The notes beneath the pieces are model-generated. The model did not search any database. It was given only the letters and a program-made list of their open reading frames with translations, and was not told the DNA's origin. Below, piece by piece: positions 16,113 through 64,000 of a stretch of 64,000 bases of DNA (its first letter is position 1; every line of letters begins with the position of its first letter). The position numbers were made by a program, and so were the translations under genes. This DNA comes from Tachypleus tridentatus (lineage: Eukaryota; Arthropoda; Merostomata; Xiphosura; Limulidae), in the NCBI RefSeq assembly GCF_004210375.1, contig NC_134825.1, forward strand, positions 124,001-188,000, written 5' to 3'.

Positions 16113-16204
16113 GTGAGAAATACGTGAAACTAATGATAAATATAGTTGTTAGTACATATATGTTTAGTTCTTTTCACTATAACCAACGCGGTAACCACAA
16201 CATC

Positions 16205-16680
16205 TTATTATACGTACCTTGTATGTTTCCAACAACAACAATAATTCTAATTATAATGTACCTTGTATTTTTATAGCAACAACAATACATCTAATTATAC
16301 AAAAATTGGTATTTTTATAGCAACAACAATACATCTAAATAAAATGCCGGTATTTTCAATATAAACAACAATACATCTAATTTCAGGTACCTGTATCTCT
16401 ATAGCAGTTCGGTAGCCGTACCGGTAATGCGTCTTATTACATCTGTATTCATATAGCAACGACAATACATCTAATTATACGTACCTGTATTCTCTACAGC
16501 AACAACAATACTCTAATTATACGTACCTGTATCTCTATAGCAACAATAATAATACATGTATTATTATATGTACTGTGGTATTGTAAAGTAACAATACATA
16601 TTATTATATGTAATTAGTACATTCTGTAGCAACAAACAATACATATTATTATACGTACCTGTATCTATATAACATTTATT
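16205..16680. repeat. ~47-bp degenerate tandem repeat
   Basis: About nine to ten copies of a unit containing TATAGCAACAACAATACATC and TAATTATACGTACCTGTAT, with many small indels, lying in the intron after exon 'a'. Confidence 0.8.
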
Positions 16681-17658
16681 ATAGCTATATATTTAATTTT
16701 AACGTCTCTCTGTTTCAGTAATACAGTAGTAACGCATTGTTATATAATAGTTTTACTAGGTGCAGTACCGCCCCTGGCCGGAAGTTATGTAAATTCATGA
16801 TCGACTAAAGGTTATTTCAGCACATGAAAAGTTGTTTCTCTTGTATATATGTAATTGCTAAAAACTGTAAAACACAAAATGCGAAACCATAAATTTATTT
16901 ATTTATGTATTCGCATGGACCTAACAAACGTTCATTCTAGATTTTGTGAAGATCCATCAACAGGGGCGAAGTAGTAGGAAAGCAGCAAAAATCTCATAAA
17001 AACTGCAAAACGCAAAATTGGAAGTTCATATGTACCCCCGAATAAACCTAATGAACATCCACAACCTGTAAAGTAGTTACATGGACGTAAAACAGTCCGT
17101 ACTATTACATTTATATAGATAACAGTCAACAGACGGTACTATTATACTTATATATATCAGATTGTAGATTTCTGTAAATGAGATGCAATGTTTGGTATTG
17201 TATCTAGAAGGTTCGGTTGGTTTGTTATTTAACGACATTTCTATATACATATCTCAAAGAAAGGCTTTTGGGTGAAATAGATTAAGAACAAGTCCAGCTG
17301 TTTGTGTTTTTATTTAATTTTTCTCTATTATTTTCAACAATTTAATTAATATTGTCTTTTCTTGAGCCTTATGTATATATAAATTATTACGAATGCAATC
17401 GCACATGCATAAAACGACCAGAGCACCCTCTAGTGATTTAGAAATATGAAGTAAAATTAATATTTCAAAACCAGCGAAGAATTAGAAACGAACAGGTATA
17501 ATATTTGTAATAAATAACAATTCAAAATGTAAATATATTTTACCACATTTTAAATTTACTACCTTTCTTTGTCGAACCAAGGAAAGAGGATGACGTAATT
17601 TATTTCTCCAGTAAACAAATTATTATATTTTCCGTGATTACTTGGTTAACGTAATACA

Positions 17659-17937
17659 GTGGCCCAGCATGCCAGGTGGAAGAAGGCACTCGACTCTCAA
17701 ATCTGAGGGTCGCAGATTTGAGTCTCGTCGCACCAAACATGCTAGCCCTTTCAGTCGCAGGAGGCGTTATAAAGTTACGACCAATCCCACTATTCTTTGG
17801 TAAAAGAGTTGTCCAAGAGTTGATGGTGGGTGGTGATGACTAGCTGCCTTCCCTCTATCCTACACTGTTAAATTGGGGAGGGCTAGCGCAGATAGCCTTC
17901 GTGTAGCTTTGCGCGAAATTCAAAACAAACAAACATA
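17659..17937 (+). mobile_element. tRNA-derived SINE, full-length
   Basis: Starts GTGGCCCAGCATGCCAGGTG, a slightly mutated A box. A CTCGACTC..AATCTGAGGGTCG anticodon-stem-like segment, a B-box relative (GATTTGAGTCTC) and CACCAAACATGC follow. The body contains CCCACTATTCTTTGGTAAAA and GGTGGTGATGACTAGCTGCC. The tail is GCGCGAAATTCAAAACAAAC. About 275 bp. Confidence 0.9.
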
Positions 17938-18024
17938 ATACATTCGGCAGAGTCTATTGCTGCGCATGCGTCCTGCTGCCTTTTTTAACGTCACTACGCT
18001 CTTATGTTTTGTTTATTTACTTAT

Positions 18025-18292
18025 CTTGAATTTTTGCGCAAAGCTACACGAGGGCTATCTGCGCCAGCCGTTCCCAATTTAGCAGAGTAAGACTCGAGGA
18101 AAGGCTGGTAGTCATCACCACCCACCGTCAACTCTTTGGCTACTCTTTTACCAACGAATAATGAAATTGTCCGTCACATTATAATGCCCACACCGCTGAA
18201 AGGGCGGGCATGTTTGGTGTGACAGAAATTCTAACTCGCGACCCTCAGATTATGAGTCGAGTGCCTTTACCACCTGGCCATGCCGGGCCTGC
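18025..18292 (-). mobile_element. tRNA-derived SINE, minus orientation
   Basis: Same element inverted, about 90 bp from the previous copy, so the pair could form a long hairpin in the intron transcript. On the minus strand the head reads GGCCCGGCATGGCCAGGTGG, close to the likely consensus. Confidence 0.9.
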
Positions 18293-18640
18293 TGTTATGG
18301 TAATCGTCTTCGTTCACATAATCTGGTAGTAAAAATGGAATATTTTAAAGCCACGTGAATGATTAGCAATTACGTAATAAGATTAAGTATGAAACTCTAG
18401 AAATTCTATTTTTTGAATAAACGCAAAACCCATTTCTGTGATTAGTAAATAAATGTAGTTTAAAAACATCGTTTACCATATGACCAGTTCATTTTTACCA
18501 CTGTAATAGCGCACATGTTTTTACATTGTTGTAAAAGCATCAGTTTTTTTTTTTTAAGTGGATAAATAAAAGCTAGTCGTCTAAATCCATTAAATTTCAA
18601 GTTATTAATTTTGGTTTCATTGAATCTCGACTCTCTGTAG

Positions 18641-18734
18641 GATCCTAGATTTCCAGATGGCGCGATGGTCGACCCGGATTCGGCAGCTTTCATCTTAGCA
18701 CATCCCATTCAACAACCAGACGGGGAATTAACAG
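18641..18734 (+). CDS. PDE11: PDE11-like exon 'b': GAF-A
   Basis: The acceptor CTCTCTGTAG ends at 18640 and the donor is GTGATT. Phase is 0 in, 1 out. It reads DPRFPDGAMVDPDSAAFILA, then HPIQQPDGELT. In PDE11 the matching place has the 'D.RFP.G' turn followed by the strand before GVLELYR. A second possible acceptor (TTTCCAG at 18656) would lose DPRFP and break the phase. Confidence 0.85.
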
Positions 18735-19774
18735 GTGATTAAAACCACTTCTATAAGCTGTGGCTGTTGATTTGTGAGGTCACGAGTTCACGTTTAACCA
18801 GGTGTTTTAACCTAAAAAAATTAAATTCAGTTATCCACCTTTACAGTTTTAACTTACCAGCAAAAACCGAAACTCTAATTTAACACTTGTTTTTAGTTTC
18901 AGTCAGTTTGGTAATTCGACAAAATGTGCGCGTAGTGTATTAACAGAGTAAAGTAACTTACGTCATAATGCGCACGTGCTGAATATGTTTTAATGTGTAG
19001 AAAGAAAAATAGAATAATAACATTTGCACTGCTCGCGATATCCATAAATACAAGTTGGCCCCGGCTTGGCCAGGTGTTTGGGCTGTTTGATTCTGAACGT
19101 CTCAGGTTCGAATCTTCATCCCACTTAACATGCTCGCCTTTTCAGGCTTGGAGGCGTTATAATGGCACGATCAATCTCACTATTCCTTGATAAAATAGCA
19201 GCCCAAGAGTTGACGGTGAGCGGTGATGACTAGCTGCCTTCCCTTTTGTCTCACACTGCTAAATTAGGAACGACTAGCACAGATAGCCTTCGTGTAGCTT
19301 TACGTGAAATTCAAAGACCAACAAGCTAGATACATGTCGACCATCTTCTGGATTCATTACTTTCTCGATCTGGCGAGAACCATTTTAATGAAGGGCCACT
19401 GACCTATGAACAATGACCTTCGAAGCGTGATATGTATAAAATAGTTGTAGTGCAATTTTAAAATGCGTTTTGCGCATGCTCCGACGCTAGCCTGCTATTG
19501 GCCATTAGCTAAAGGTTATAACTTAAAATGAATTTTTGACCAATCGTATAACTCATCAAAAAACAAATAGAATCGAAGTAAGAAAAATTATCTCACACAA
19601 CACAATATTAGTTAATAATTGTAATTTTCTCGTATTATGTGAGATCTAACGGTAAGTGAGAGGTCGCCACCTTTGTCAGAACTCTATATCCAGAGCTTTG
19701 AATCGAGCCAGGGATTTGTTTCCTTCGTTTGAATTAACAAACAATAATTACGATTATTTCTTCATTTCAAACAG
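18735..19774 (+). other. Intron with one SINE
   Basis: No tandem array, unlike most introns of this gene. It holds a SINE at 19055-19320 and nothing else recognised. Confidence 0.65.
19055..19320 (+). mobile_element. tRNA-derived SINE
   Basis: Head GGCCCCGGCTTGGCCAGGTG, B-box-like CAGGTTCGAATCTTC, body with GATCAATCTCACTATTCCTT and GGTGATGACTAGCTGCCTTC, and tail GTGAAATTCAAAGACCAAC. Confidence 0.88.
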
Positions 19775-19834
19775 GGGGTTCTCGAATTATACCGGAATTC
19801 TGAAGAAGGACCGTTCCACGAGGAAGACGAGGAG
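19775..19834 (+). CDS. PDE11: PDE11-like exon 'c': GAF-A
   Basis: The acceptor is TTTCAAACAG and the donor GTAATA. It reads GVLELYRNSEEGPFHEEDEE, the core GAF strand and following loop. The preceding exon ends in phase 1 but this one reads correctly only in phase 0. Removing one G from the G run at 19774-19778 restores T-G-VLELYR across the junction, so an extra G is likely an assembly error. Confidence 0.9.
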
Positions 19835-20035
19835 GTAATAACAGGTGTTTATCATTAGCCACAGATCCGTTGTTTGATCCATACAGTTGCTATGTAACCA
19901 TTTAAATTAAACTATTTTTATAGAGAAAACTAGAAATTCGTCTAGTAAATAACGTAGCTAATTTAATATAGCGGGTAACTTGTAACCAATGATGTTAAAA
20001 CAGAAAGTCACGTGTGGTCCTTATTGTTTTATTAG

Positions 20036-20086
20036 ATCATCAACAGCTATCTGGTATGGGGAGGTATTGCTCTACATTACGCCGAG
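20036..20086 (+). CDS. PDE11: PDE11-like exon 'd': end of GAF-A
   Basis: A small 17-codon exon with acceptor TTTTATTAG, donor GTAAAA and phase 0 on both sides. It reads IINSYLVWGGIALHYAE, the last helix of GAF-A. The SYLVWGGIALHYAE phrase is highly characteristic of the PDE5/11 group. Confidence 0.92.
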
Positions 20087-20477
20087 GTAAAATTAAAATC
20101 TAATAATTAACTTATTCGTTGTCATGGTTTGCTAGCGTGCACGATCACCTAGGTGTAGTTACTTTATTGTTGTGAGTTAATGTAGTAGTAATAGTATTCA
20201 AATGAATCGTTTATATTAATGTGAAAAGTTAGACTTGTGTGGTCGAATAGGGCCGTGGTACTCAAACTATGGGTCGTCTCTTCCAAGAGGGACGTGGAGA
20301 GTCGGGAGGGGCGGTTGGAAGCACAACTTAGAACATGTAAATTACATCTGAAAGTAGAAATTTTAAACCAAACATGTTTTAAAACTAGTGTATAAATGTT
20401 ACTGGTATTAATTAATATAGTAAGAACAATTAAAGTGGAAAAATATATTATGTACAGTGTGCAAAATTATACTGGGA

Positions 20478-20892
20478 GCAGGGGACAACATAATACGTTT
20501 AGTAAGGGGACAACATATAATAACGTTTAGTAAGGGGACAATATAATACGTTTAGTAAGGGGACAACATAATACGTTTAGTAAGGGGACAACATGATGTC
20601 GTTTAGTAAGGGGACAAATATGATACGTTTAGTAAGGGGACAATATAATACGTTTAGTAAGGGGATAACATAATACGTTTAGTAAGGGACAAAATACATA
20701 ATACGTTTAGTAAGGGGACAACATGATACGTTTATTAAGGGGACAATATAATACGTTTAGTAGGGGACAACATGATACGTTTAGTAAGGGGACAACATAA
20801 TACGTTTAGTAAGGGGATAACATAATACGTTTAGTAAGGGGACAACATAATACGTTTAGTAAGGGGACAACATAATACGTTTAGTGAGGGGA
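20478..20892. repeat. 25-bp tandem repeat, about 17 copies
   Basis: The unit includes GGGGACAACATAATACGTTT followed by AGTAA, with copies of 22-27 bp. It is well conserved except for short indels. Confidence 0.93.
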
Positions 20893-21059
20893 CACCATTA
20901 AAAGTTTGCGTACCAGTGATGCGGTACATTAATATCATTATATTACCACAATCTTACCTTACGTACTTGATTAAATACACATATATAAGCATCACTAACA
21001 ATCAGATCATCCCACCGTTCATCTATATTGTAAAAATACCTTAAGCTCCATCCTTCTTT

Positions 21060-21490
21060 AGGTTATACAAAAAAACATAGGCTTTGTCTGATGTCCAACA
21101 GTATCAGAGTTTTCTAGTAAATTTTATAGGAAACCCTAAGCTTCGTCTGATGGTCAACAATAAAACCATAGCTGTCTAGTGATTTCTATAGGAAAACATA
21201 GGCCTTGTCTGATGTCCAACCATAAGAAAGCTGTCTAGTAATTTCTGTAGGAGAGCCTAGGCCTTGTCTGATAGTCAACCATACTATAGCAGTCTTATAA
21301 TTTCTCGAGGAAAGCTTAGGCCTTGTTTGATGGTCAACCATACCGGAGCTGTCGGTGATTTCTATGGGGAAGCTTAGTCCTTGTCTGATGGTCAACCATA
21401 CCGGAGCTGTCTAGTGATTTCTATGGGAAAACCTTGGCCTTGTATCATGACCCAACATACTAGGTATGCCTAGTAATTTCTCCAGGTTGA
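21060..21490. repeat. ~60-bp tandem repeat, about 7 copies
   Basis: The unit contains TAGGCCTTGTCTGATGGTCA, then ACCATA..GGAGCTGTCTAGT and GATTTCTATAGG. Divergence is moderate. It is immediately followed by a SINE. Confidence 0.88.
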
Positions 21491-21497
21491 CATATTC

Positions 21498-21770
21498 TAG
21501 ACCTGGCATGGCCAGGTGATTAAGGCACTCGACCTCTAATCCGAGGGTCACGAGATCGAATTCCTATCACACCAAACATGCTCTCCCTTTCAGCCGTAGG
21601 GGTGTTATAATGTTGCGATCAATCCCACTATTCGTTGGTAAAGAGTAGCTTAAGAGTTGACGGTGGGTGGTGATGACTAGCTGCCTTCCCTCTAGTTTTA
21701 CACTGCTAAGGCAAGACGGCTAGTGCAGATAACCCTCGAGTAGCTTTGCATGAAATTCAAAACAAACAAA
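21498..21770 (+). mobile_element. tRNA-derived SINE
   Basis: Head ACCTGGCATGGCCAGGTGAT, segment CTCGACCTCTAATCCGAGGG, body and tail (TGAAATTCAAAACAAACAAA) as in the other copies. It is inserted right after the 60-bp array. Confidence 0.9.
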
Positions 21771-22069
21771 TGTATGATCTTGGATCGACTGGCTCTTAAC
21801 ATGTCTTAGCGTTTAATTTAAGACAGCATATCTCACTGTCTTAACATTTAATTACTTAATCAGTGCAAGGGGTTCGTTATAATAATATATGATAAAATTA
21901 ATTTAATATCTCTTGATTTTATTAGGTTTTCTTAAAGTTCTAATTGTTTCCTGCGATTTACTGATATTGCTAACTATGTTTAGAGTCCTTTGATATTCAC
22001 CAGTTGTATGTAAGCTGATAATAATATTGGGCGTTTTGTCTTTCATAATCTTCATGTTCAAAATTTCAG

Positions 22070-22128
22070 ATGTACACCAATATGGCGCGACAGAGGAAAC
22101 TCAACAACTTATTATTGGCTGTTGTCAG
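22070..22128 (+). CDS. PDE11: PDE11-like exon 'e': GAF-A/GAF-B connecting helix
   Basis: The acceptor is CAAAATTTCAG and the donor GTGAGT. Phase is 0 in, 2 out. It reads MYTNMARQRKLNNLLLAVV, the amphipathic helix that joins the tandem GAF domains. The ATG here is internal coding sequence, not a start. Reading into the intron meets a stop at once (AGG TGA), so the long frame starting at 22442 is not an extension of it. Confidence 0.9.
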
Positions 22129-22624
22129 GTGAGTTTGATTTAGGACTAACTCAGAGAGAGAGAAAAGTCATTTCTTAGCTACCTAGAACAAACAAACTGA
22201 ATGATATTTAACTTATTAAAACAAGAAAATGGGTTAAAACGAACAGAAAATATTCTGCATTAATTATAAAATAATCACGTTTACAAACATTGTGGATATG
22301 ACGGTGTGGACGATTACAGAATATTGATCAGTGATCCATTTGGGCACAAAAAAATATAGGTACAGCACTGTTTTATTGACGTCATTTCCGTTTTAAGGCT
22401 ATGACGTTCCTCATATCACGGATAAACCAGCAAACGGATAATTGGAAGTTTCTAACGCTTCAGTTGTCTTACATCTTTCTATTTTCATAGCTTTTAACAT
22501 TCTCTCCTATAGTGGTTCAGCTTATCACGCTAAATATCGAGTTTTGATACCTACAACGGGTAGGATGCAAACAGTCAGAAGTGAAACTCTGCTCTTAACA
22601 AAAAAAATAAAACTAATTATTCAA
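22129..22624 (+). other. Intron start before the 66-bp array
   Basis: AT-rich single-copy intron sequence with nothing recognised. Confidence 0.6.
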
Positions 22625-25600
22625 TCACGGTGTGATGGTTTAGGATTACACTCTTACTGGTACCAACTTACCACCTACAATGTATTTTACAATGCTTGTG
22701 ATGGTTTAGGATTACACTCTTACTGGTACCAACTTATCAGCTACAATGTATTTTACAATGCTTGTGATGGTTTAAGATTACACTATTACTGGTACCAACT
22801 TATCAGCTACAATGTATTTTACAGTGTTTGTGATGGTTTAGGATTATACTCTTACTGGTACCAACTTATCAGCTACAATGTATTTTACAGTGTTTGTGAT
22901 GGTTTAGGATTACACTCTTACTGGTACCAACTTATCAGCTACAATGCATTTTACAGTGTTTGTGATGCTTTAGCATTACACTCTTACTGGTACCAACTTA
23001 TCAGCTACAATGTATTTTACAATGCTTGTGATGGTTTAGGATTACACTCTTACTGGTACCAACTTATCAGCTACAATGTATTTTACAGTGTTTGTGATGG
23101 TTTAGGATTACACTTACTGGTACCAACTTATCACCTACAATGTATTTTACAATGCTTGTGATGGTTTAAGATTACACTATTACTGGTACCAACTTATCAG
23201 CTACAATGTATTTTACAGTGTTTGTGATGGTTTAGGATTATACTCTTACTGGTACCAACTTATCAGCTACAATGTATTTTACAGTGTTTGTGATGGTTTA
23301 GGATTACACTCTTACTGGTACCAACTTATCAGCTACAATGTATTTTACAGTGTTTGTGATGGTTTAGGATTACACTCTTACTGGTACCAACTTATCAGCT
23401 ACAATGCATTTTACAGTGTTTGTGATGGTTTAGGATTACACTCTTACTGGTACCAACTTATCAGCTACAATGTATTTTACAGTGTTTGTGATGCTTTAGC
23501 ATTACACTCTTACTGGTACCAACTTATCAGCTACAATGTATTTTACAAGTGCTTGTGATGGTTTAGGATTACACTCTTACTGGTACCAACTTATCAGCTA
23601 CAATGTATTTTACAGTGTTTGTGATGGTTTAGGATTACACACTTACTGGTACCAACTTATCAGCTACAATGTATTTTACAGTGTTTGTGATGGTTTAGGA
23701 TTACACTCTTACTGGTACCAACTTATCAGCTACAATGTATTTTACAGTGTTTGTGATGGTTTAGGATTACACTCTTACTGGTACCAACTTATCAGCTACA
23801 ATGCATTTTACAGTGTTTGTGATGCTTTAGCATTACACTCTTACTGGTACCAACTTATCAGCTACAATGTATTTTACAATGCTTGTGATGGTTTAGGATT
23901 ACACTCTTACTGGTACCAACTTATCAGCTACAATGTATTTTACAGTGTTTGTGATGGTTTAGGATTACACACTTACTGGTACCAACTTATCAGCTACAAT
24001 GTATTTTACAGTGTTTGTTATGGTTTAGGATTACACTCTTACTGGTACCAACTTATCAGCTACAATGTATTTTACAATGCTTGTGATGGTTTAGGATTAC
24101 ACTCTTACTGGTACCAACTTATCAGCTACAATGTATTTTACAGTGTTTGTGATGGTTTAGGATTACACACTTACTGGTACCAATTTATCACCTACAATGT
24201 ATTTTACAGTGTTTGTGATGGTTTAGGATTACACTTACTGGTACCAACTTATCACCTACAATGTATTTTATAGTGTTTGTGATGGTTTAGGATTACACTC
24301 TTACTGGTACCAACTTATCAGCTACAATGTATTTTACAGTATTTGTGATGGTTTAGGATTACACACTTACTGGTACCAACTTATCAGCTACAATGTATTT
24401 TTTACAGTGTTTGTGATGGTTTAGGATTACACACTTACTGGTACCAACTTACCACCGACAATGTATTTTATAGTGTTTGTGATGGTTTAGGATTACACTC
24501 TTACTGGTACCAACTTATCACCTACAATGTATTTTACAATGTTTGTGATGGTTTAAGATTACACTATTACTGGTACCAACTTATCAGCTACAATGTATTT
24601 TACAGTGTTTGTGATGGTTTAGGATTACACTCTGACTGGTACCAACTTATCAGCTACAATGTATTTTACAATGCTTGTGATGGTTTAGGATTACACTCTT
24701 ACTGGTACCAACTTATCAGCTACAATGTATTTTACAGTGTTTGTGATGGTTTAGCATTACACTCTTACTGGTACCAACTTATCAGCTACAATGTATTTTA
24801 CAGTGTTTGTGATGGTTTAGGATTACACTTTACTGGTACCAACTTATCAGCTACAATCTATTTTACAGTGTTTGTGATGGTTTAGGATTACACACTTACT
24901 GGTACCAACTTAACACCTACAATGTATTTTATAGTGTTTGTGATGGTTTAGGATTACACTTTTACTGGTACCAACTTAACAGCTACAATGTATTTTACAG
25001 TGTTTGTGATGGTTTAGGATTACACTTTACTGGTACCAACTTATCAGCTACAATGTATTTTACAGTGTTTGTGATGGTTTAGGATTACACACTTACTGGT
25101 ACCAACTTATCACCTACAATGTATTTTATAGTGTTTGTGATGGTTTAGGATTACACTTTTACTGGTACCAACTTATCACCTACAATGTATTTTACAGTGT
25201 TTGTGATGGTTTAGGATTACACTCTTACTGGTACCAACTTATCAGCTACAATGTATTTTACAATGCTTGTGATGGTTTAGGATTACACTCTTACTGGTAC
25301 CAACTTATCACCTACAATGTATTTTACAGTGTTTGTGATGGTTTAGGATTACACTCTTACTGGTTCCAACTTATCACCTACAATGTATTTTACAATGTTT
25401 GTGATGGTTTAGGATTACACTCTTACTGGTACCAACTTACCACCTACAATGTATTTTACAGTGTTTGTGATGGTTTAGGATTACACTCTTACTGGTACCA
25501 ACTTATCACCTACAATGTATTTTACAGTGTTTGTGATGGTTTAGGATTACACTCTACTGGTACCAACTTATCAGCTACAATGTATTTTACAGTGTTTGTG

Positions 25601-27575
25601 ATGGTTTAGTATTACACTCTTACTGGTACCAACTTATCAGCTACAATGTATTTTACAGTGTTTGTGATGGTTTAGGATTACACTCTTACTGGTACCAACT
25701 TATCAGCTACAATGTATTTTACAGTGTTTGTGATGGTTTAGGATTACACTCCTACTGGTACCAACTTACCACCTACAATGTATTTTACAGTGTTTGTGAT
25801 GGTTTAGTATTACACTCTTACTGGTACCAACTTATCAGCTACAATGTATTTTACAGTGTTTGTGATGGTTTAGGATTACACACTTACTGGTACCAACTTA
25901 CCACCTACAATGTATTTTACAGTGTTTGTGATGGTTTAGTATTACACTCCTACTGGTACCAACTTATCAGCTACAATGTATTTTACAATGCTTGTGATGG
26001 TATAGGATTACACTTTTACTGGTACCAACTTATCACCTACAATGTATTTTACAATGCTTGTGATGGTTTAGGATTACACTCTTACTGGTACCAACTTATC
26101 AGCTACAATGTATTTTACAATGCTTGTGATGGTATAGGATTACACTCTTACTGGTACCAACTTATCAGCTACAATGTATTTTACAATGCTTGTGATGGTA
26201 TAGGATTACACTCTTACTGGTACCAACTTATCAGCTACAATGTATTTTACAATGCTTGTGATGGTTTAGCATTACACACTTACTGGTACCAACTTATCAG
26301 CTACAATGTATTTTACAGTGCTTGTGATGGTTTAGCATTACACACTTACTGGTACCAACTTATCAGCTACAATGTATTTTACAGTGCTTGTGATGGTATA
26401 GGATTACACTCTTACTGGTACCAACTTATCAGCTACAATGTATTTTACAGTGTTTGTGATGGTATAGGATTACACTCTTACTGGTACCAACTTATCAGCT
26501 ACAATGTATTTTACAGTGTTTGTGATGGTTTAGGATTACACTCTTACTGGTACCAACTTATCAGCTACAATGTATTTTACAGTGTTTGTGATGGTATAGG
26601 ATTACACTCTTACTGGTACCAACTTATCAGCTACAATGTATTTTACAGTGTTTGTGATGGTATAGGATTACACTCTTACTGGTACCAACTTATCAGCTAC
26701 AATGTATTTTATAGTGTTTGTGATGGTATAGGATTACACTCTTACTGGTACCAACTTATCAGCTACAATGTATTTTACAGTGTTTGTGATGGTATAGGAT
26801 TACACTCTTACTGGTACCAACTTATCAGCTACAATGTATTTTACAGTGCTTGTGATGGTATAGGATTACACTATTACTGGTACCAACTTATCAGCTACAA
26901 TGTATTTTACAATGCTTGTGATGGTATAGGATTACACTCTTACTGGTACCAACTTATCAGCTACAATGTATTTTACAGTGTTTGTGATGGTATAGGATTA
27001 CACTCTTACTGGTACCAACTTATCAGCTACAATGTATTTTACAGTGTTTTGATGGTATAGGATTACACTCTTACTGGTACCAACTTATCAGCTACAATGT
27101 ATTTTACAGTGTTTGTGATGGTATAGGATTACACTCTTACTGGTACCAACTTATCAGCTACAATGTATTTTACAGTGTTTGTGATGGTTTAGGAATACAC
27201 TCTTACTGGTACCAACTTATCAGCTACAATGTATTTTACAATGCTTGTGATGGTATAGGATTACACTCTTACTGGTACCAACTTATCAGCTACAATGTAT
27301 TTTACAATGCTTGTGATGGTTTAGGATTACACTCTTACTGGTACCAACTTATCAGCTACAATGTATTTTACAATGCTTGTGATGGTTTAGGATTACACTC
27401 TTACTGGTACCAACTTATCAGCTACAATGTATTTTACAATGCTTGTGATGGTTATAGGATTACACACTTACTGGTACCAACTTATCAGCTACAATGTATT
27501 TTACAGTGTTTGTGATGGTTTAGTATTACACACTTACTGGTACCAACTTATCAGCTACAATGTATTTTACAGTTC
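22625..27575. repeat. 66-bp minisatellite, about 75 copies
   Basis: Each unit contains TGTGATGGTTTAGGATTACA, CTCTTACTGGTACCAACTTA and TCAGCTACAATGTATTTTAC. A palindromic GGTACC lies in nearly every copy. The period is a multiple of three and the unit lacks a stop in one frame, giving open frames (22442-23161, 23536-24273) of a 22-residue repeat CDGLGLHSYWYQLISYNVFY+SV. These end at indels and are not thought to be genes. Variants are layered: GGTTTAGG units dominate the left two thirds, GGTATAGG units the right third, and multi-unit blocks recur, indicating local block amplification. Confidence 0.97.
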
Positions 27576-27625
27576 TTGCTTCATGCTTTGTTTTTACCGA
27601 TAAAAATATCTAACAACATTTTGTT

Positions 27626-50398: not shown

Positions 50399-50439
50399 GT
50401 AGGCTTAGAAAATACAGGGTCGTTATACAAGCATAAGAT

Positions 50440-50950: not shown

Positions 50951-50977
50951 AACATTTGATTGCATTTTGTTTTACAG

Positions 50978-51116: not shown

Positions 51117-51424
51117 GTAAGTTTACTTACATTTGTATCTTTTCATAAGCTTCGTGTCTCTTTTTCCGACGTCGTCTGTAATGTAGTAATAAAGACAAAC
51201 GAATGTGTTTAAACATATAAACAACGTTCTATAACGGATAAGTTGTTTTTAAAGATAGGAAACACGGTATTTATGAGTGTCGTATAAGTGTTTGTTTGTT
51301 TTATTGTGTTTTTTTTGCGGGACAACTCCGTACACACATCAGTTCTAACACTGGGTGAGTTTTCCAAACTATTTGTTATAAAAATTTGCGATCATTGGAA
51401 GTTTAAACCTTTTCTCGTGTAATT

Positions 51425-52050: not shown

Positions 52051-52069
52051 ACACCCTTCTTGACCAAAC

Positions 52070-52306
52070 AGAGATTCGTGGGTTCGAATCCCAAATCACA
52101 CCAAACACGCTCGACCTTTTAGCCGTAGGGGCGATATATTGTTAGGGTCAATCCCGCTATTCGTTGGTAAAAGAGTAGCCCAAGAGTTGGCGGTGGGTGG
52201 TGACGACAAGTTGCCTTCCCTCTAGTCTTACACTGCAAAGTAAGGGACGGATAGCGCAGATAGTCCTCGAGTAGCTTTGCGCGAAATTCAAAAAGAAATC
52301 AAACAA
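52070..52306 (+). mobile_element. tRNA-derived SINE, 5'-truncated
   Basis: Begins near the B box (GTGGGTTCGAATCCC) and lacks the A box. The body and the tail GCGCGAAATTCAAAAAGAAA are well preserved. It lies at the end of the second 40-bp block. Confidence 0.88.
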
Positions 52307-52806
52307 GGTAAAATGTACAGCTACTGTCCAGTTCAGAATGACACTTGTAGCGAGTCGTGAATCAGTGAATGAGATAAATCGTGTTGTGTAATATTACATC
52401 ATCACTGTGTTCATACTATTATAATTAATACGTTTATTTACTTATATGTTTAATCTCTTCAGATTACGTTTACTCTATTTTATTCTGAACTGACTGGTCA
52501 GTTTATGAAACTTATTACTTATGCGCAAACTGTTTTGGACAGGCTAATTCGAAATTTAAAGTCTGTAAACAGTTTATCTACCAGTACCATTTTATTTTAT
52601 CTTTCAAGCAACACATAAGACAATACAAATGTGACGGACTTAAACACATGTCACAACTGGGACACTTGTGACCGACTTAAAGACATATTCTAGTTTTAAA
52701 CAACTATTACCCATGTAATTATCTATCTAAATCTCTAGTTTATAGATGGCTAATACACGATATTAAGTAAATAATTTCTAACATCTCTCATTCATTCTTT
52801 GGACAG

Positions 52807-52893
52807 ATTCAACTTTTCTCCATTCTCTCTGGACTCTGAACAGAAAGTGTCAGCAGCTATATACATGTTCATTGACCTGTTTGGTCTTAACAA
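52807..52893 (+). CDS. PDE11: PDE11-like exon 'l': linker to catalytic domain
   Basis: Acceptor TTCTTTGGACAG, donor GTGAGT. It enters in phase 2 and reads FNFSPFSLDSEQKVSAAIYM, then FIDLFGLN. This corresponds to the 'F.F..F.L' segment at the start of the class I catalytic domain, before the helices carrying the metal-binding HD motifs. It is the last exon seen. Confidence 0.88.
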
Positions 52894-53019
52894 GTGAGTC
52901 ATGTGTCTTATCAATGTGAAGTTAATGTAATGATTCTGTAAGGTGTACGTCAGGGTTAGTTGGAAACATTTATATACAACATTAAAGTTTTATAACACTT
53001 TATTGATATTTGAACATTT

Positions 53020-56000
53020 GTTTAGTTTAAAGTTTGATTACATTACTGATAACGACATTACCAGTTTAAAGTTTGATTACATTACTGATAACGACATTAC
53101 CAGTTTAAAGTTTGATTACATTACTGATAACGACATTACCAGTTTAAAGTTTGATTACATTACTGATAACGACATTACCAGTTTAAAGTTTGATTACATT
53201 ACATTACCAGTTTAAAGTTTGATTACATTACGATAACGATTACCAGTTTAAAGTTTGATTACATTACCACGATAACGACATTACCAGTTTAAAGTTTGAT
53301 TACATTACTGATAACGACATTACCAGTTTAAAGTTTGATTACATTACTGATAACGACACGTACACAGTTTAAAAGTTTGATCTGTGCATTTTGGGTTTGA
53401 TAACGACATTACCAGTTTAAAGTTTGATTACATTACTGATAACGACATTACCAGTTTAAAGTTTGATTACATTACTGATAACGACATTACCAGTTTAAAG
53501 TTTGATTACATTACTGATAACGACATTACCAGTTTAAAGTTTGATTACATTACTGATAACGACATTACCAGTTTAAAGTTTGATTACATTACTGATAACG
53601 ACATTACCAGTTTAAAGTTTGATTATATTACTGATGTAACGACATTACCAGTTTAAAGTTTGATTACATTACTGATAACGACATTACCAGTTTAAAGTTT
53701 GATTACATTACTGATAACGACATTACCAGTTTAAAGTTTGATTATATTACTGATAACGATCGACTATTACCAATTTAAAGTTTGATTACATTACTGATAA
53801 CGACATTACCAATTAAAGTTTGATTACATTACTGATAACGACATTACCAGTTTAAAGTTTGATTACATTACTGATAACGACATTACCAGTTTAAAGTTTG
53901 ATTACATTACTGATAACGACATTACCAGTTTAAAGTTTGATTACATTACTGATAACGACATTACCAGTTTAAAGTTTGATTACATTACTGATAACGACAT
54001 TACCAGTTTAAAGTTTGATTACATTACTGATAACGACATTACCAGTTTAAAGTTTGATTACATTACTCATAACGACATTACCAGTTTAAAGTTTGATTAC
54101 ATTACTGATAACGACATTACCAGTTTAAAGTTTGATTACATTACTGATAACGATTACCAGTTTAAAGTTTGATTACATTACTGATAACGACATTACCAGT
54201 TTAAAGTTTGATTACATTACTGATAACGACATTACCAGTTTAAAAGTTTGATTACATTACTGATAACGACATTACCAGTTTAAAGTTTGATTACATTACT
54301 GATAACGACATTACCAGTTTAAAGTTTGATTACATTACTGATAACGACATTACCAGTTTAAAGTTTGATTACATTACTGATAACGACATTACCAGTTTAA
54401 AGTTTGATTACATTACTGATAACGACATTACCAGTTTAAAGTTTGATTACATTCCACTGATAACGATTATTACCTGTTTAAAGTTTGATTACATTACTGA
54501 TAACGACATTACCAGTTTAAAGTTTGATTACATTACTGATAACGACATTACCAAGTTTAAAAGTTTGATTATGCATTACTGATAACGACATTACCAGTTT
54601 AAAGTTTGATTACATTACTGATAACGACATTACCAGTTTAAAGTTTGATTACATTACTGATAACGACATTACCAGTTTAAAGTTTGATTACACACTACTG
54701 ATAACGACATTACCAGTTTAAAGTTTGATTACACTACTGATAACGTTTGATTACATTTTGATTACCAGTTTAAAGTTTGATTACATTACTGATAACGACA
54801 TTACCAGTTTAAAGTTTGATTACATTACAGTAACGACATTACAAGTTTAAAGTTTGATTACATTACTTACCAGTTTAAAGTTTGATTACATTACTGATAA
54901 CGACATTACCAGTTTAAAGTTTGATTACATTACTGATAACGACATTACCAGTTTAAAGTTTGATTATTACTAAAGTGATAAACGACATACCAGTTTAAAG
55001 TTTGATTACATTACTGATAACGACATTACCAGTTTAAAGTTTGATTACATTACTGATAACGACATTACCAGTTTAAAGTTTGATTACATTACTGATAACG
55101 GCATTACCAGTTTAAAGTTTGATTACCACACTTATAACGACATTACCAGTTTAAAGTTTGATTACACTACTGATAACGACATTACCAGTTTAAAGTTTGA
55201 TTACATTACTGATAACGACATTACCAGTTTAAAGTTTGATTACACTACTGATAACGACATTACCAGTTTAAAGTTTGATTACACACTACTGATAACGACA
55301 TTACCAGTTTAAAGTTTGATTACATTACTGATAACGACATTACCAGTTTAAAGTTTGATTACATTACTGATAACGACATTACCAGTTTAAAGTTTGATTA
55401 CATTACTGATAACGACATTACCAGTTTAAAGTTTGATTACATTACTGATAACGACATTACCAGTTTAAAGTTTGATTACATTACTGATAACGACATTACC
55501 AGTTTAAAGTTTGATTACACTACTGATAACGACATTACCAGTCAGTAAATTACCAGTTTGATTACATTACTGATAACGACATTACCAGTTTAAAGTTTGA
55601 TTACATTACTGATAACGATATTACCAGTTTAAAGTTTGATTACATTACTGATAACGACATTACCAGTTTAAAGTTTGATTACATTACTGATAACGACATT
55701 ACCAGTTTAAAGTTTGATTATTTTCACTGATAACGACATTTACCAGTTTAAAAGTTTGATTACATTTCACTGATAACGACATTACCAGTTTAAAGTTTGA
55801 TTACATTACTGATAACGACATTACCAGTTTAAAGTTTGATTACATTACTGATAACGACATTACCAGTTTAAAGTTTGATATTACATTTGATTACTTTGAT
55901 AACGACATTACCAGTTTAAAGTTTGATTACATTACTGATAACGACATTACCAGTTTAAAGTTTGATTACATTACTGATAACGACATTACCAGTTTAAAGT

Positions 56001-56909
56001 TTGATTACACTACTGATTACGACATTACCAGTTTAAAGGTTTGATTACACTTTGATTTACCAGTTTAACGTTTGACTACTGGATAACGACATTACCAGTT
56101 TAAAGTTTGATTACATTACTGATAACGACATTACCAGTTTAAGTTTGAACATTTGATTACATTACTAGTTTAAAGTTTGATTACATTGACTGACATTACC
56201 AGTTTAAAGTTTGATTACATTACTGATAACGACATTACCAGTTTAAAGTTTGATTACATTACTGATAACGACATTACCAGTTTAAAGTTTGATTACATTA
56301 CTGATAACGACATTACCAGTTTAAAGTTTGATTACACTACTTATTTACCAGTTAAAGTTTGGTTATTTTACTAACGACATTACCAGTTTAAAGTTTGATT
56401 ACATTACTGCCGATAACGACATTACCAGTTTAAAGTTTGATTACATTACTGATAACGACATTACCAGTTTAAAGTTTGATTACATTACTGATAACGACAT
56501 TACCAGTTTAAAGTTTGATTACATTACTGATAACGACATTACCAGTTTAAAGTTTGATTACATTACTGATAACTGACATTACCAGTTTAAAGTTTGATTA
56601 CATACTGATAACGACATTACCAGTTTAAAGTTTGATTACATTACTGATAACGACATTACCAGTTTAAAGTTTGATTACATTACAGTAACGACATTACAGT
56701 TTAAAAGTTTGATTACATTACTGATAACGACATTACCAGTTTAAAGTTTGATTACACTACTGATAAATCGATTAATTACCAGTTTAAAGTTTGATTACAT
56801 TACTGATAAACGACCATTACCAGTTTAAAGTTTGATTACATTACTGATAACGACATTACCAGTTTAAAGTTTGATTACATTACTGATAACGACATTACCA
56901 GTTTAAAGT
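53020..56909. repeat. 39-bp minisatellite, about 100 copies
   Basis: The unit is TTACTGATAACGACATTACC followed by AGTTTAAAGTTTGATTACA. The 13-codon period gives open frames of TDNDITSLKFDYI. Most copies are identical, but many carry 1-12 base insertions or losses, more than the 34-bp array, and the array runs into the 500-N gap. Confidence 0.97.
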
Positions 56910-57409
56910 NNNNNNNNNNNNNNNNNNNNNNNNNNNNNNNNNNNNNNNNNNNNNNNNNNNNNNNNNNNNNNNNNNNNNNNNNNNNNNNNNNNNNNNNNNN
57001 NNNNNNNNNNNNNNNNNNNNNNNNNNNNNNNNNNNNNNNNNNNNNNNNNNNNNNNNNNNNNNNNNNNNNNNNNNNNNNNNNNNNNNNNNNNNNNNNNNNN
57101 NNNNNNNNNNNNNNNNNNNNNNNNNNNNNNNNNNNNNNNNNNNNNNNNNNNNNNNNNNNNNNNNNNNNNNNNNNNNNNNNNNNNNNNNNNNNNNNNNNNN
57201 NNNNNNNNNNNNNNNNNNNNNNNNNNNNNNNNNNNNNNNNNNNNNNNNNNNNNNNNNNNNNNNNNNNNNNNNNNNNNNNNNNNNNNNNNNNNNNNNNNNN
57301 NNNNNNNNNNNNNNNNNNNNNNNNNNNNNNNNNNNNNNNNNNNNNNNNNNNNNNNNNNNNNNNNNNNNNNNNNNNNNNNNNNNNNNNNNNNNNNNNNNNN
57401 NNNNNNNNN
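56910..57409. other. Assembly gap, 500 N
   Basis: Exactly 500 N. The left side is the 39-bp array and the right side the 37-bp array, so the true distance is unknown and exons may be missing. Confidence 0.98.
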
Positions 57410-60400
57410 CTACTTGTGTAGACAGTACTACCAGAACAGTTCACTAGCTCTTGTGTAGACAGTAACCAGGTTCACGAACAGTTCAGCTGCTACTACTTGT
57501 GTGTAGACAGTACTACCAGAATTGAAGTTCACTACTACTTGTGTAGACAGTACCACCAGAACAGTTCAACTACCAGCAGGTGTAGAGCAGTACTACAGAA
57601 CAGTTCAATTACTACTAAAAGTGAGGCTGAACAGCACCAGGTGAACAGTACTCATCACTCACTCATGGTACAGTGTAGGTAGTACTGGTGTAGACAGTAC
57701 TACCAGAGCAGTCTCCACTACTACTTGTGTAGACAGTACCACTCAACTAGTAGACAGTTCACAGTCTACTCTTGTGTGTAGACAGTACTCACCAGAACAG
57801 TACTCACTAACCACTTGTGCAGACATAATTGCCACCAGAACAGTTCACTACCTACAGGTGTGACAGTACCACCAGAACAGTTCAATTATTACTTGTGTGT
57901 ACTGTACCACTGGTGGAACACCCTTCCAATGGGTGTGTACTCTTCAGGCAGACAGTTCACTGGGACGTGCTACCAGAACTATGGTTCAGTTCACTACCAC
58001 TTCTGCAGACAGTCACCACTGCGGAACAGTACTCACTACTACTGGCCAGGCAGAACAGTACCACAGAACAACAGTTCTACCTACCACAGGCGTAGAACAT
58101 TAATACCTCACCAGAACAGTTCACAGTACCACAGGTGCAGCATGGCACCTACCAGAACAGTTCACAAGTTCACCTACAGGTGTAGACAGTACTAACACAC
58201 CAGAACAGTACTACAGGTGGCAGACAGGTACCACCTGTGTGTCAGTACCGGATTGCACTAACAGACAGCCCCACCTGTACACTCTGGTAGACAGTATCAG
58301 TACCACCAGAACAGTTCAATCTGCCTTCCTGTAGACAGTACTCACCAGAACTCCACTCAGTACCCTGTGTAGACAGTACCACCAGAACAGTTCACTAGTA
58401 CCTGTGTGCCCAGATACTACCAGTACAGTTCACTGCAGTGTGACAGTACCACTGCATTGTAGACAGTACCCACCAGAACACTCAAATTACCACTCTGTGA
58501 CACAGGTACCTCACCAGAACAGTTCACCACTACTACTTCAGGTAGACAGTATCACCAGAACAACAGTTCACTACTACTCTGTGTGTATTATACTACCAGA
58601 ACAGTTCATCACTACAGGTAAGTGTGTACAGTACTACCAGAACAGTTCCACTACCACTCGTGTAGACAGTACTCAAATTGTAACAGCTCCACTATTACTT
58701 GTGTAGACAGTACCACCAGAACAGTTCAATTACTACTGTGTAGACAGTACACAGAACAGTCTCACTGCCCAGGTGTAGACAGTACTACCAGCAAACAGTT
58801 CAATTACTACTCTGTGTGTAGACAGTACTACCAGAACAGTTCACCACTAACTTAGCAGTAGAGACAGTACCACCAGAACAGTCTCACTCACTACTTGTGT
58901 AGACAGTACTACCAGAACAGTTCACTACTGCAGGTGTGGTAGGACAGTTCACTACCACCAGAACAGTTCACTACTACTTGTGGTAGTACTACCAGAACAG
59001 TACACTACTTGAACAGTTCACTACTACTTGTGACAGTACTACCAGAACAGTTCACTAGTACCAGTGGACAGTACTACCCACAGTTCACTACTACTTGTGT
59101 AGACAGTACTACCAGAACAGTTCACTACTACTTGTGTAGAACAGCACTACCAGAACAGTTCACTACTTCAGGTGTAGACAGTACTCACCAGAACAGTTCA
59201 CTACTACGTGTGACAGACAGTACCCTCACCAGAACAGTTCACTACTAGGTGTAGACAGTACTACCAGAACAGTTCACTACTACTTGTGTGAACAGTACTA
59301 CCAGAACAGTTCACTGTTATGTCTACTTGTGTGAACAGTACTACCAGAACAGTTCACAACTACTTGTGTAGACAGTACTACCAGAACAGTTCACTTTACC
59401 ACCGGGTGGTATGCAATACTCACCAGAACAGTTCACTATTACTACATGTAGACAGTATCTACTCAGAACAGTTCACTAGTACTTGTGTGAACAGTACTAC
59501 CAGAACAGTTCACTACTACTCTGTGTAGACAGTACTACCAGAACAGTTCACTACTACGTGAAGGTTGTAGACAGTACTACCAGAACAGTTCACTACTACA
59601 GTTATGGCTGTTCAACTGCTACCAGAACAGTTCACTACTTACAGATTGGCCAGGCAGTTCACTTTACCAGAACAGTTCACTATCAGGGTGGTGAACAGTA
59701 CTACCAGAACAGTTCACTGGTACTGCGTGTAGTGACAGTACTACCAGAACAAGTTCACCGGGTGACACTTCTACGTAGAACAGTACTACCAGAACAGTTC
59801 ACTCCACTTACTGGCAGACTGTACTGGCAGACAGTACCTACTGAACCGTGGAACAGAATACTACTAGTACTATTGTAGACTTGTGTGAAAGTGTACTACC
59901 AGAACAGTTCACTAGTACTTACTGTAGGCAGTACGGTACCAGAACAGTTCACTGGTACTTGGTGTGAACAGTACTACCAGAACAGTTCACTACTACTTGT
60001 GTAGAACAGTACTACCAGAACAGTTCACTACTACTTGTGTAGACAGTACTACCAGAACAGTTCACTACTACTTGTGTAGACAGTACTACCAGAACAGTTC
60101 ACCACTGCGGTGTAGGAACAGTACTACCAGAACAGTTCACTACTTGTGCCGGACAGTACTACCAGAACAGTTCACTACCACTTGTGTAGACAGTACTACC
60201 AGAACAGTTCACTACTACTTGTGTGCAGACAAAATTACCAGAACAGTTCACTACTACTTGTGAACAGACGGTACTCACCAGAGAGTTCACTACTACTTGC
60301 CCGTACACAGGTTTTACCAGAGACAGTTCCACTTTCTACTACTTGTGTAGACCCGGTACCTACACAGAACAGTTCACTATTACTTGTGGTGTGAACAGTA

Positions 60401-60915
60401 CTACCAAGAACAGTTCACTACTACAGGTGTGAACAGTACTACCAGAACAGTTCACTACTACTTGTGTGAGTACTACAGAAACCACTTCACTAGAACTGGA
60501 TTCACTAGTATTACTACCAGAACAGTTCACTACTACAGGTGTAGACAAAAGGCAATTTGTGTACCCAGAACAGTTCACTTATTGCCAATGTAGACAGTAC
60601 TACCCAGAACAGTTCACTACTACTTGTGTAGACAGTTACCAGAACAGTTCACTACACTACTGAGCAGGTGTAGACAGTGGTTTACTACTACAGGTGTGAA
60701 CAGTACTACCAGAACAGTTCACTACTACAGGTGTAGACAATACTACCAGAACAGTTCACTACTACAGGTGTAGACAGTACCACCAGAACAGTTCACTTAG
60801 TACTTGTGTAGACAGTACTACCAGAACAGTTCACCTGTGCTTCTGTAGACAGTACACACCAGAACAGTTCACTAGTACTTGTGTAGACAGTACTACCAGA
60901 ACAGTTCACTAGTAC
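57410..60915. repeat. 37-bp satellite A, noisy, about 95 copies
   Basis: The unit is AGTACTACCAGAACAGTTCA followed by CTACTACTTGTGTAGAC. From 57410 to about 59000 almost every copy has extra or missing bases. From 59000 on it becomes clean. The 60-131-codon frames are artefacts. The unit shares the AGAACAGTTCACTA core with satellite B. Confidence 0.93.
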
Positions 60916-62960
60916 TGGTGCAAACACTGAAACAACAACAGAACAGTTCACTGGTACTGGTGCAAACTGAAATGACTAGAACAGCTCACTGGTACCGGTG
61001 CAAACAGCTGAAATGATAGAACAGCTCACTGGTACTGGTGCAAACTGAAACGAAAGAACAGTTCACTAGCACTGGTGCAAAACTAAACAACAACACAACA
61101 GCTCACTAGTACTGGTGCAACTGAAAACAACAGAACAGTTCACTGGTACTGGTGCAAAACTGAATACAACAGAACAGTTCACTGGTACTGGTGCAGACTG
61201 AAACAATAGCACAGTTCACCAGTACTGGCGCAAACTGAAACTATACCAGAACAGCTCACTGGTACTGGCTGGAAACCACTGAACAGAACAGTTCACTGGT
61301 ACTGGTGCAAACTGAAACGATAGAACAGTTCACTCAGTACTGGTGCAAACTGAAACGACTAGAACAGTTCACTAGTACTGGTGCAAACTGAAACAACACA
61401 ACAGCTCACTGGTACTGGTGCAAACTGAAAGGATAGAACAGTTCACTAGTACTGGTGCAAACTGAAACTACACAACAGCTCACTAGTACTGGTGCAAAAC
61501 TGAAACAGACAACAGCTCACTGGGTACTGGTGCAACCTGAAATGACAGAACAGCTCACTAGCACTGGTGCAAACTGAAACAACAGAACAGCTCACTAGTG
61601 CTGGTGCAAACTGAAACGACAGAACAGCTTACTAGCGCTGGTGCAAACTGAAACGACAGAACAGCTCACTCAGCACTGGTGCAAACTGAAACGCTACAGA
61701 ACAGCTCACTAGCACTGGTGCAAACGAGAACGACAGAACAGCTCACTCAGCACTGGTGCAAACTGAAACGACAGAACAGCTCACTAACACTGGTGCAAAC
61801 TGAGAACGACAGGAACAGCTCACACTAGTACTGGTGCAAACTGAAACGCAGAGAACAGTTCACTGGTACTGGTGCAAACTGAAACAAAAGAACAGCTCAC
61901 TAGCACTGGTGCAAACTGGAAACAACACAAACAGCTCACTGGTACTGGTGCAAACTGAAAGGATAGAACAGTTCACTAAGTACTGGTGCAAACTGAAACG
62001 ACACAACAGTTCACTAAGTACTGGTGCAAACTGAACTAATACCACAACAGCTCACTGGTACTGGCGCAAACTGAAACGACAGAACAGCTCACTGGTACTG
62101 GTGTAGGAACTGAAACGACAGAACAGCTCACTAGTGACTGGTGCAAACTGAAACGACAGAACAGCTTGCTAAGCACTGGTTACCCAAACCTGAAACAGAC
62201 AGAACAGCTCTACCAGCACTGGTTGCAAACTGAACGACAGAACAGCTCACTAGCACTGGTGCAAACTGGAAACGACAGAACAGCTCACTCAGCACTGGTG
62301 CAAACTGAAACGACACAGAACAGCTCACTCAGCACTGGTGCAAACTGAAACGACAGAACAGCTCACTAGCACTGGTGCAAACTGAACGACGAGAACAGTT
62401 CACTAGCTACTGGCTGAAACTGAAACGCAGAGAACAGCTTCACTAGTGCTGGGCCAGAAACTGAAACGAGAGAACAGCTCACCAGTGCTGGTGCACAAGC
62501 TGAAACGGGAAGAGAACAGCTCACTAGTGCTGGTGCAAACTGCAAAGGGACCACAGAACAGCAGAACACTCACTAGTGCTGGTGCAAACTGAAACGAGAG
62601 AACAGCTCACTAGTGCTGGTTGCAAACTGAAACGACAGAACAGCTCACTAGTGCTGGTGCAAACTGAAACGACAGAACAGCTCACTAGTGCTGGTAAACT
62701 GAAACGAAGAACAGCTCACTAGTGCTGGTGCAAACTGAAACGACAGAACAGCTCACTAGTGCTGGTGCAAACTGAAACGACAGAACAGCTCACTGCAGTA
62801 CTGGTGCAAACTGAAAGAGAGAACAGTTCACTGGTACTGGTTTGTGCAAAACTGAAACGAGAACAGTTCACTGGTTCTGGGTGCAAACTGAAGCGAGAAA
62901 ACAGTTCACTGGTACTGGTGCAAACTGAAACGACATAGAACAGGTTTTACTGGTGCTGGT
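60905..62960. repeat. 37-bp satellite B, about 55 copies
   Basis: The unit is AGAACAGCTCACTAGTRCTG followed by GTGCAAACTGAAACGAC. The first half (AGAACAGYTCACTAGTACT) is shared with satellite A and the second half differs, while the unit length is the same. The array starts directly where A ends, with a transitional unit near 60905-60960. Confidence 0.93.
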
Positions 62961-63547
62961 TTAAACATTATTAACTATTTGACTATGGTCTGAGTGGATT
63001 CCACCTGGCCAATATCCATCTAAGTAATCATGAGTCAGATATTGTAACTTTTAAAATATACACATATATATATATCTTAAGAAAATTTTGTATATTATCA
63101 GTAAACATTGCAAGGCTTTTGTACACAAAATATCAGATCTTATAATTAAGTTTAAATATTTTTGTAATTAATTTTTTGCTTGTAGATATTTTTCTTCTAA
63201 AATGTTAACTATCCAAGATGCAAGTAATTTTTATTATATGATTAATAATTCGTTTATGCATCAGAGATATCCCACATATGAATTATCTGTGACCTACAGT
63301 TAATTATGAAATATTTTTTTAGAAAACACTATATTTTACATGTTATTATCTCCGTTTTAATTCTGTATGGGTTTAGTTTTTTTTTGGACTGACCTTGTAA
63401 ATCACCATAAAAAATGTGAAATAGACATAAGTTCCATTTTTGTTGTTATAGAATGACTACAGATTATAACACACATACACAGACGTTTATCCTAAGTTTC
63501 TTAGATTTTGTAACATTATACGTGTGTCTATATTTATCATTCACTGC
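62961..63547 (+). other. Single-copy AT-rich island between satellite arrays
   Basis: About 590 bp of ordinary-looking AT-rich sequence between satellite B and a second block of satellite A. I see no exon: no open frame with splice signals and no phosphodiesterase catalytic motif. Confidence 0.7.
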
Positions 63548-64000
63548 CAGTACAGTTCACTAGTACTTGTGTAGACAGTACTACCAGAACAGTTCACTAG
63601 TATTGGTGTAGACAGTACTACCAGAACAGTTCACTATTGTAGAACAGTACTACCAGAACAGTTCACTACTACAGGTGTAGACAGTACTACCAGAACAGTT
63701 CACTACTACTTGTGTAGACAGTACTACCAGAACAGTTCACTGTCTACTTGTGTAGACAGTACTACCAGAACAGTTCACTACTACAGGTGTAGACAGTACT
63801 CTACCAGAACAGTTCACCTGTACTCTGTAGACAGTACCACCAGAACAGTTCATCTACTACTTGTGTGGACAGTACCACCAGAACAGTTCACTAGTATTGG
63901 TGTAGACAGTACTACCAGAACAGTTCACTAGTACTGGTGTAGACAGTACTACCAGAACACTTTCACTACTTTGTGTAGACAGTACTACCAGAACAGTTCA
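63548..64000. repeat. 37-bp satellite A, second block
   Basis: About 12 clean copies of the same unit as 57410-60915, running off the right edge. Confidence 0.95.

Follow-up and report, generated by a model that had tools for sequence, protein, structure and literature searches.

The introns of a phosphodiesterase (PDE) gene of the horseshoe crab Tachypleus tridentatus consist mostly of minisatellites. The gene lies in a window of 64,000 nucleotides (NC_134825.1, here C1, 124001-188000), which belongs to a genome of 2.17 Gb in 205 contigs and whose own positions are used as coordinates below. Length-variable minisatellites have probably arisen separately in the introns of this single PDE10-like gene, which seems intact; minisatellites are frequent in the genome at large, and the region around the gene is dense in them. 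Tandem repeats detected by Tandem Repeats Finder (TRF) cover 26,660 of the 33,281 intron bases (80%) from exon 1 to exon 11, with 14 arrays (period of at least 20, score of at least 80) in eight of the ten introns. From intron 1 to intron 10 the tandem-repeat share is 0, 0, 42, 91, 33, 95, 86, 99, 14 and 26%; these shares, like the array-rate tests given below, use exon edges that are 1-2 bases off the final ones at some exons. Merely 70 non-repeat bases are left in intron 8, and the only exon bases that fall within arrays are 13 at the edge of exon 8. The three largest complete introns of the window copy measure 5.4-11.1 kb. The original prediction, made by reading the sequence, held that nearly every intron has its own array and that only 18735-19774 and 19835-20035 lack one. 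TRF likewise finds no array in these two introns, and the eight others do contain arrays, some of them tiny (2.6 copies or 81 bp in intron 9; 6.0 and 5.1 copies in intron 10). At least a dozen intron arrays had been proposed; periods of 25, 59, 66, 27, 85, 32, 33, 34, 40 and 39 are recovered between 20480 and 56909, while the 47-bp (1-357) and 37-40-bp (57410-64000) arrays are located on other contigs, and part of the predicted pattern is thus owed to the joining of contigs in the assembly. The unit sizes fit the minisatellite range (about 10-100 bp, head to tail), a few arrays (81-106 bp) being under the usual array size.

The arrays change length fast and their flanks do not. A protein search detects five near-identical copies of the gene, four of them on contig C14: the window copy (A), A again at C14:33.07 Mb, A' at C14:32.19 Mb, B at C14:33.17 Mb (C14:33165229-33213096) and B' at C14:32.38 Mb, of which A' and B' are partial in the search listing. 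Intron lengths in A and B were taken as distances between the starts of exon hits, with a correction wherever two hits do not start at the same residue. Introns 1, 2 and 9, with no or nearly no array, are 1131, 264 and 681 bp in the window copy and 1129, 264 and 680 bp in B. In contrast, intron 4 is about 8.6 kb in the window copy and 18.2 kb in B, followed by intron 6 (about 11.3 and 13.8 kb), intron 8 (5.5 and 6.6 kb), intron 10 (1.8 and 2.2 kb), intron 7 (1.42 and 1.56 kb) and intron 3 (2.03 and 2.07 kb, a difference of about 40 bp). Intron 5 is about 1.49 kb in the window copy and 1.32 kb in B, which is shorter by about 170 bp, or two 85-bp units. The 66-bp array of copy B (C14:33169259-33181662) has about 188 units against 75 in A, as judged from one 6-kb and three 1-kb stretches sampled, and the 27-bp matches of B (C14:33181884-33186492) correspond to about 171 units against 99. 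The order of 66-bp units agrees between A and B at one of 75 places (the first 87 units of B were examined), and the array of B holds repeated blocks absent from A. Non-repeat DNA of A and B is 99% identical over 1.1 kb, 1.9 kb of upstream non-repeat DNA rounds to 100% against B when measured from the C14 copy of A, and five exons differ at one of 534 sites, an amino-acid change. The 33- and 34-bp arrays are present in all five copies. Matches to the 39-bp unit of intron 11 span about 22 kb in another copy, the window array being cut off by a gap, and the exon hits flanking intron 11 are about 27 kb apart in A'. No clear higher-order structure is seen in six arrays tested, where a unit resembles its near neighbours hardly more than the distant ones.

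As predicted, the array families are mostly unrelated to each other. When 20 units were compared, three of the 190 pairs exceeded the 99.9% level of shuffled units, namely 27/36a (adjacent in intron 4), 40/40b (in one intron) and, from outside the gene, 37/37b. Another six pairs attain the 99% level, at which about two are expected. A single satellite spreading among the introns is rejected by this comparison. Usable genome-wide searches were obtained for seven families, the 85-, 40-, 36- and small 32-bp families being outside them. At the thresholds used, which varied among searches from an E-value of 1e-3 to 1e-50, the 66-, 27-, 39-, 33-, 34-, 25- and 59-bp families match copies of the PDE locus only. 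This restriction supports an independent local origin of the arrays as judged from their units, although the lack of a match elsewhere is weak evidence, because the search with the 66-bp unit missed copy B, which does have a 66-bp array.

The array load was set against that of other parts of the genome. Among 34 kilobase tiles over the PDE gene, 26 have at least 50% tandem repeat (mean 78%). Among 20 random kilobases, taken from 11 of the 205 contigs, most of them sampled over part of their length, five have at least 10% and two at least 50% (mean 15.4%). The corresponding numbers are five and two of 15 (mean 19.9%) for intron kilobases near other PDEase exons; these slices assume that adjoining PDEase hits on the same strand are one gene, and two of them come from paralogs. 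In the random and intron kilobases with arrays, the best array of each has a different period. Arrays per non-repeat kilobase number 2.11 in the PDE gene, 0.41 in random DNA, 0.50 in the other introns, 0.15 in three longer paralog stretches, and 0.09 and 0.66 in the first and third contigs of the window. At the random-DNA rate per unique kilobase, 2.3 introns with an array would be expected, against the eight found (P about 6e-5); the P values serve as guides only, since clustering is left out of account and a reader had chosen the window. What stands out is the size of the arrays and their filling of introns that hold little unique DNA. The PDE gene is four- to five-fold enriched in tandem repeats and is not unique, for minisatellites are common in the genome; it appears to stand at the extreme of a tendency to form repeats that is widespread in the horseshoe-crab genome. 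The idea that such satellite richness is peculiar to one gene therefore stands in degree (80% against 15.4 and 19.9%) and not in kind, as arrays also occur in five of the 20 random and five of the 15 intron kilobases. In the coagulogen gene on C11, DNA near an exon translates into a repeating peptide in several of its frames and seems to hold a tandem array. The Coagulin family, which is not known outside horseshoe crabs, is present in this genome, and one of its exons agrees with coagulogen 1aoc of Tachypleus tridentatus at 42 of 42 residues.

Several observations weigh against separate, rapidly evolving arrays in this gene. At the random-DNA rate per total kilobase, a generous null, 5.1 introns with an array are expected, so that the eight found are only mildly unusual (P 0.03-0.04); nor does the array count stand out when set against total length (14, with 11.6-13.3 expected). 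The 32-bp T/G-rich family has 64-68% matches on C3, C6, C7, C9, C10 and C14, so that the claim that the unit families are not common genome-wide is supported for the seven locus-only families and not for this one; its distant matches are possibly low complexity, and its search missed even its own position in the window. The window copy and its C14 duplicate both have 75 units of 66 bp, of which only 50 are identical in place, and therefore the letters of the arrays carry either assembly noise or real change. In copy B', no 39-bp match was found at the threshold used. Copies A and B may be alleles or recent tandem duplicates, with five copies assembled and four of them on C14; the mutational reading of array change holds either way. 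A heterozygosity of 0.8% is reported for Carcinoscorpius (PMC7210998).

The gene was placed by homology to PDE GAF domains and by splice signals, which gave 11 exons of 972 bp in total instead of the predicted twelve of about 1.05 kb. All ten introns are GT-AG at the final exon edges. The GAF domain is matched by PF01590 (E 1.6e-26). The PDE10A GAF chain 2zmf scores 195 bits in one stretch, and PDE5A chains score more in total (210 bits), with 118 bits in their best stretch. The gene would thus encode a GAF-type cyclic-nucleotide phosphodiesterase, PDE10-like by its homology, with a tentative subfamily name. Among 150 candidates scored out of 269, none in the window or the C1 flank matched the PDEase catalytic domain, and C1, scanned for motifs up to 268 kb, showed no catalytic exon. 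Catalytic matches do occur downstream of copies A' and B' on C14, on the same strand, and are tied to the gene by order and strand only. Two possible 5' exons near C14:33057167 and C14:33059544 were read by eye, without database support; for the latter no PDB relative was found, and a GAF match barely reaches it. A search of viral contigs with the PDE piece gave no relative. The frame of exon 10 is open in A', B, B' and two paralogous genes; its break in the window copy and in the nearest duplicate of that copy is probably an error of the assembly consensus. A pseudogene, in which arrays grow under relaxed constraint, is not supported, as exon 10 is broken only in these two copies and the other ten exons are open. 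Of 178 codons compared between the PDE gene and one paralog on C10, 70 show silent differences and 33 amino-acid differences, consistent with selection on the protein since the two separated.

Two runs of exactly 500 N split the window into three contigs, of which the second bears the gene (Table 1). Ten of 13 non-repeat pieces of contig 2 are 98.4-100% identical to C14:33066022-33102179, with few substitutions, and the other three (two at the ends) are 88.0, 89.8 and 97.8% identical. The 37-bp family beside the gene contig has no match on C14; its matches are confined to C1, where they lie at the right end of the window, just beyond it, and further on at 4.47 and 4.79 Mb. Because of this flank family, the collinearity with C14, and the catalytic matches that follow the C14 copies while none is listed on C1, contig 2 is most likely a redundant contig placed into C1 by scaffolding. 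A location at the chromosome end (the window begins 124 kb into C1) is set aside as a cause of the arrays, because C14 seems to be the proper place of the gene contig. Loci of this type, prone to breakage, duplication and misplacement in long-range assemblies, are a warning. Elsewhere on C1, a 13-kb array with a 50-bp unit (C1:224654-237821; 263 copies) lies in a stretch with transposon-like frames, and no host gene was found there. The unit of a 43-bp array at C1:204609-205083 resembles part of a dispersed repeat of about 270 bp, which occurs several times in the window (e.g., 17661-18289 and 21505-21771) and which we take to resemble a tRNA-derived short interspersed nuclear element. The 27-bp array in intron 4 is open for hundreds of codons in several frames (27614-30385), its period being divisible by three; coding is unsupported.

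Table 1. Features of the window, in order of position
Feature	Position	Strand	Basis
47-bp array, contig 1, across N gap from gene	1..357	.	TRF
Assembly gap, 500 N, join of contigs 1 and 2	14721..15220	.	
Contig 2, PDE gene segment; 15898-52315 collinear with C14:33066022-33102179	15221..56909	+	
29-bp array upstream of exon 1; about 70 copies in C14 copy	15222..15860	.	TRF
42-44-bp arrays upstream of exon 1	16202..16671	.	TRF
Exon 1, end of GAF-A	18641..18734	+	GAF homology, splice signals
Exon 2	19775..19834	+	homology, splice signals
Exon 3	20036..20086	+	homology, splice signals
25-bp array, intron 3	20480..20898	.	TRF
59-bp array, intron 3	21072..21481	.	TRF
Exon 4	22070..22128	+	homology, splice signals
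66-bp array, 75 copies, intron 4; about 188 in copy B	22631..27573	.	TRF
27-bp array, 99 copies, intron 4; about 171 in copy B by match span	27628..30294	.	TRF
Exon 5, start of GAF-B	30656..30707	+	homology, splice signals
85-bp array, 5.5 copies, intron 5	30882..31349	.	TRF
Exon 6, GAF-B	32136..32287	+	homology, splice signals
32-bp T/G-rich array, 341 copies, 95% of intron 6	32467..43031	.	TRF
Exon 7, GAF-B	43382..43474	+	homology, splice signals
33-bp array, 34.8 copies, intron 7	43555..44702	.	TRF
Exon 8, GAF-B	44808..44876	+	homology, splice signals
33-bp tandem duplication, 2.2 copies, over 3' edge of exon 8 and splice donor	44864..44933	.	TRF
34-bp array, 155 copies; intron 8 is 98.7% tandem repeat	44956..50235	.	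TRF
Exon 9, GAF-B	50284..50398	+	homology, splice signals
32-bp array, 2.6 copies (81 bp), intron 9	50861..50941	.	TRF
Exon 10; frame broken here and in closest duplicate, open in three other assembled copies	50978..51116	+	
Two related 40-bp arrays, 6.0 and 5.1 copies, intron 10	51427..52050	.	TRF
Exon 11, taken as catalytic-region start by eye; weak PDE5A alignment only	52807..52894	+	
39-bp array, intron 11, ends at N gap	53024..56909	.	TRF
Assembly gap, 500 N, join of contigs 2 and 3	56910..57409	.	
37-40-bp arrays, contig 3; membership in PDE gene unsupported	57410..64000	.	TRF

Each array may have started as a short local duplication, and its growth or shrinkage would be due to slippage, unequal exchange or break repair, which are indistinguishable in the present data. 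Introns would tolerate such arrays because selection presumably acts on splice signals and exons only; no regulatory function of the arrays is proposed. It is quite possible that the cause is purely regional, the gene lying in satellite-dense DNA (e.g., pericentromeric or heterochromatic) and its introns being affected no more than the surrounding intergenic DNA. On C14, the contig that bears the A copy opens with a 165-bp satellite; about 20 kb of array-rich DNA lie between the end of this satellite and exon 1 downstream of it. On C1, a stretch that has two Pfam matches of transposon type, and in which a limited scan found no host gene, is 48.5% array. However, the upstream stretch on C14 may hold the 5' exons read by eye and so provides no clean intergenic control, and the downstream 165-bp satellite contig is separated from the C14 copy by an N gap. 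The satellite arrays flanking this copy are at C14:33030001-33048434 and C14:33102680-33130000, with a 55-bp sub-unit in one TRF row.

A gene-specific process, in which transcription- or chromatin-linked instability makes introns "stutter" as in genes of bird dot chromosomes, is unlikely. It would accord with the array lengths that differ between gene copies, with the tandem duplication at the edge of exon 8, and with the array-poor paralogs: three stretches of two paralogous genes (C10 and C13) have 17, 0.8 and 0% array, and two 1-kb intron slices of C10 paralogs have none (0% each). As these old paralogs are array-poor where sampled, the array load either changed after the C10/C13 duplications or is easily lost. 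On the other hand, arrays also occur in other introns and in random DNA of the genome, and exon-like matches in adjacent introns barely exceed shuffled controls. Those that beat the shuffles are only 9-base matches near exons 1 and 10, and the exon 8 match (24.3 bits by BLAST) merely equals the best of three shuffles; systematic stuttering of exons is accordingly unsupported. The duplication at exon 8 (44864-44933) creates two donor-like sites and is possibly a nascent minisatellite at a splice site. Mis-assembly is very unlikely to have made the arrays or their lengths. In its favour are the make-up of the window from three joined contigs, the second version of the gene contig on C14, in which 25 of the 75 66-bp units differ, and the exon 10 frame, broken in that pair and not in three other copies. 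Against it, the A copy on C14 repeats the arrays intron by intron and in unchanged order, those of 33 and 34 bp recur in every copy, and introns 1, 2 and 9 agree within 2 bp between A and B while the array introns do not.

No study of horseshoe-crab intron minisatellites was found among the open-licence papers listed. The Drosophila genes kl-3 and kl-5 are Y-linked. As in their gigantic, satellite-filled introns, those of the PDE gene are swollen by tandem DNA, although the kl-3 and kl-5 introns are described as megabase-sized, against 5.4-11.1 kb for the three largest complete ones here (PMC6508621). Arrays are also disproportionate in the human subtelomeric genes DLGAP2 and PTPRN2, whose load of variable number tandem repeats the authors tie to chromosomal position; the subtelomeric enrichment there concerns repeats of more than 60% GC (guanine plus cytosine), whereas in the PDE gene arrays make up 80% of intron bases and intron GC is 33.6% (PMC7608644). 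The closest published parallel found is the "sequence stuttering" of introns on avian dot chromosomes, which shows intraspecies length variation with intact coding sequence and, in the example given, spares an ohnolog elsewhere (PMC12954441). Local, intron-specific motifs in most introns are common to both. The avian introns vary strongly in length within a species, and large differences are seen here between copies A and B of one assembly, which may be alleles or duplicates. Genes whose introns each expand a repeat of their own have been described in birds, gerbil genes being named as an exception, and in birds this is associated with GC-rich genes (PMC12954441), while GC is 45.4% in exons and 33.6% in introns of the horseshoe-crab gene. 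Copies of exon edges occur occasionally in birds and are nearly absent here, the one duplication at exon 8 not exceeding the best of three shuffles.

It is conceivable, if rather doubtful, that the gene is an AT-rich invertebrate counterpart of avian stuttering: a paralog that, following whole-genome duplication, ended up at a place where a polymorphic minisatellite goes on growing in almost each of its introns, while sister genes are spared. If this is true, intron stuttering would be separated from GC content. The PDE gene, with an intron GC of 34%, and its sampled array-poor sister genes form a natural comparison for what makes introns prone to minisatellite growth, and the same comparison bears on how far splicing tolerates arrays.

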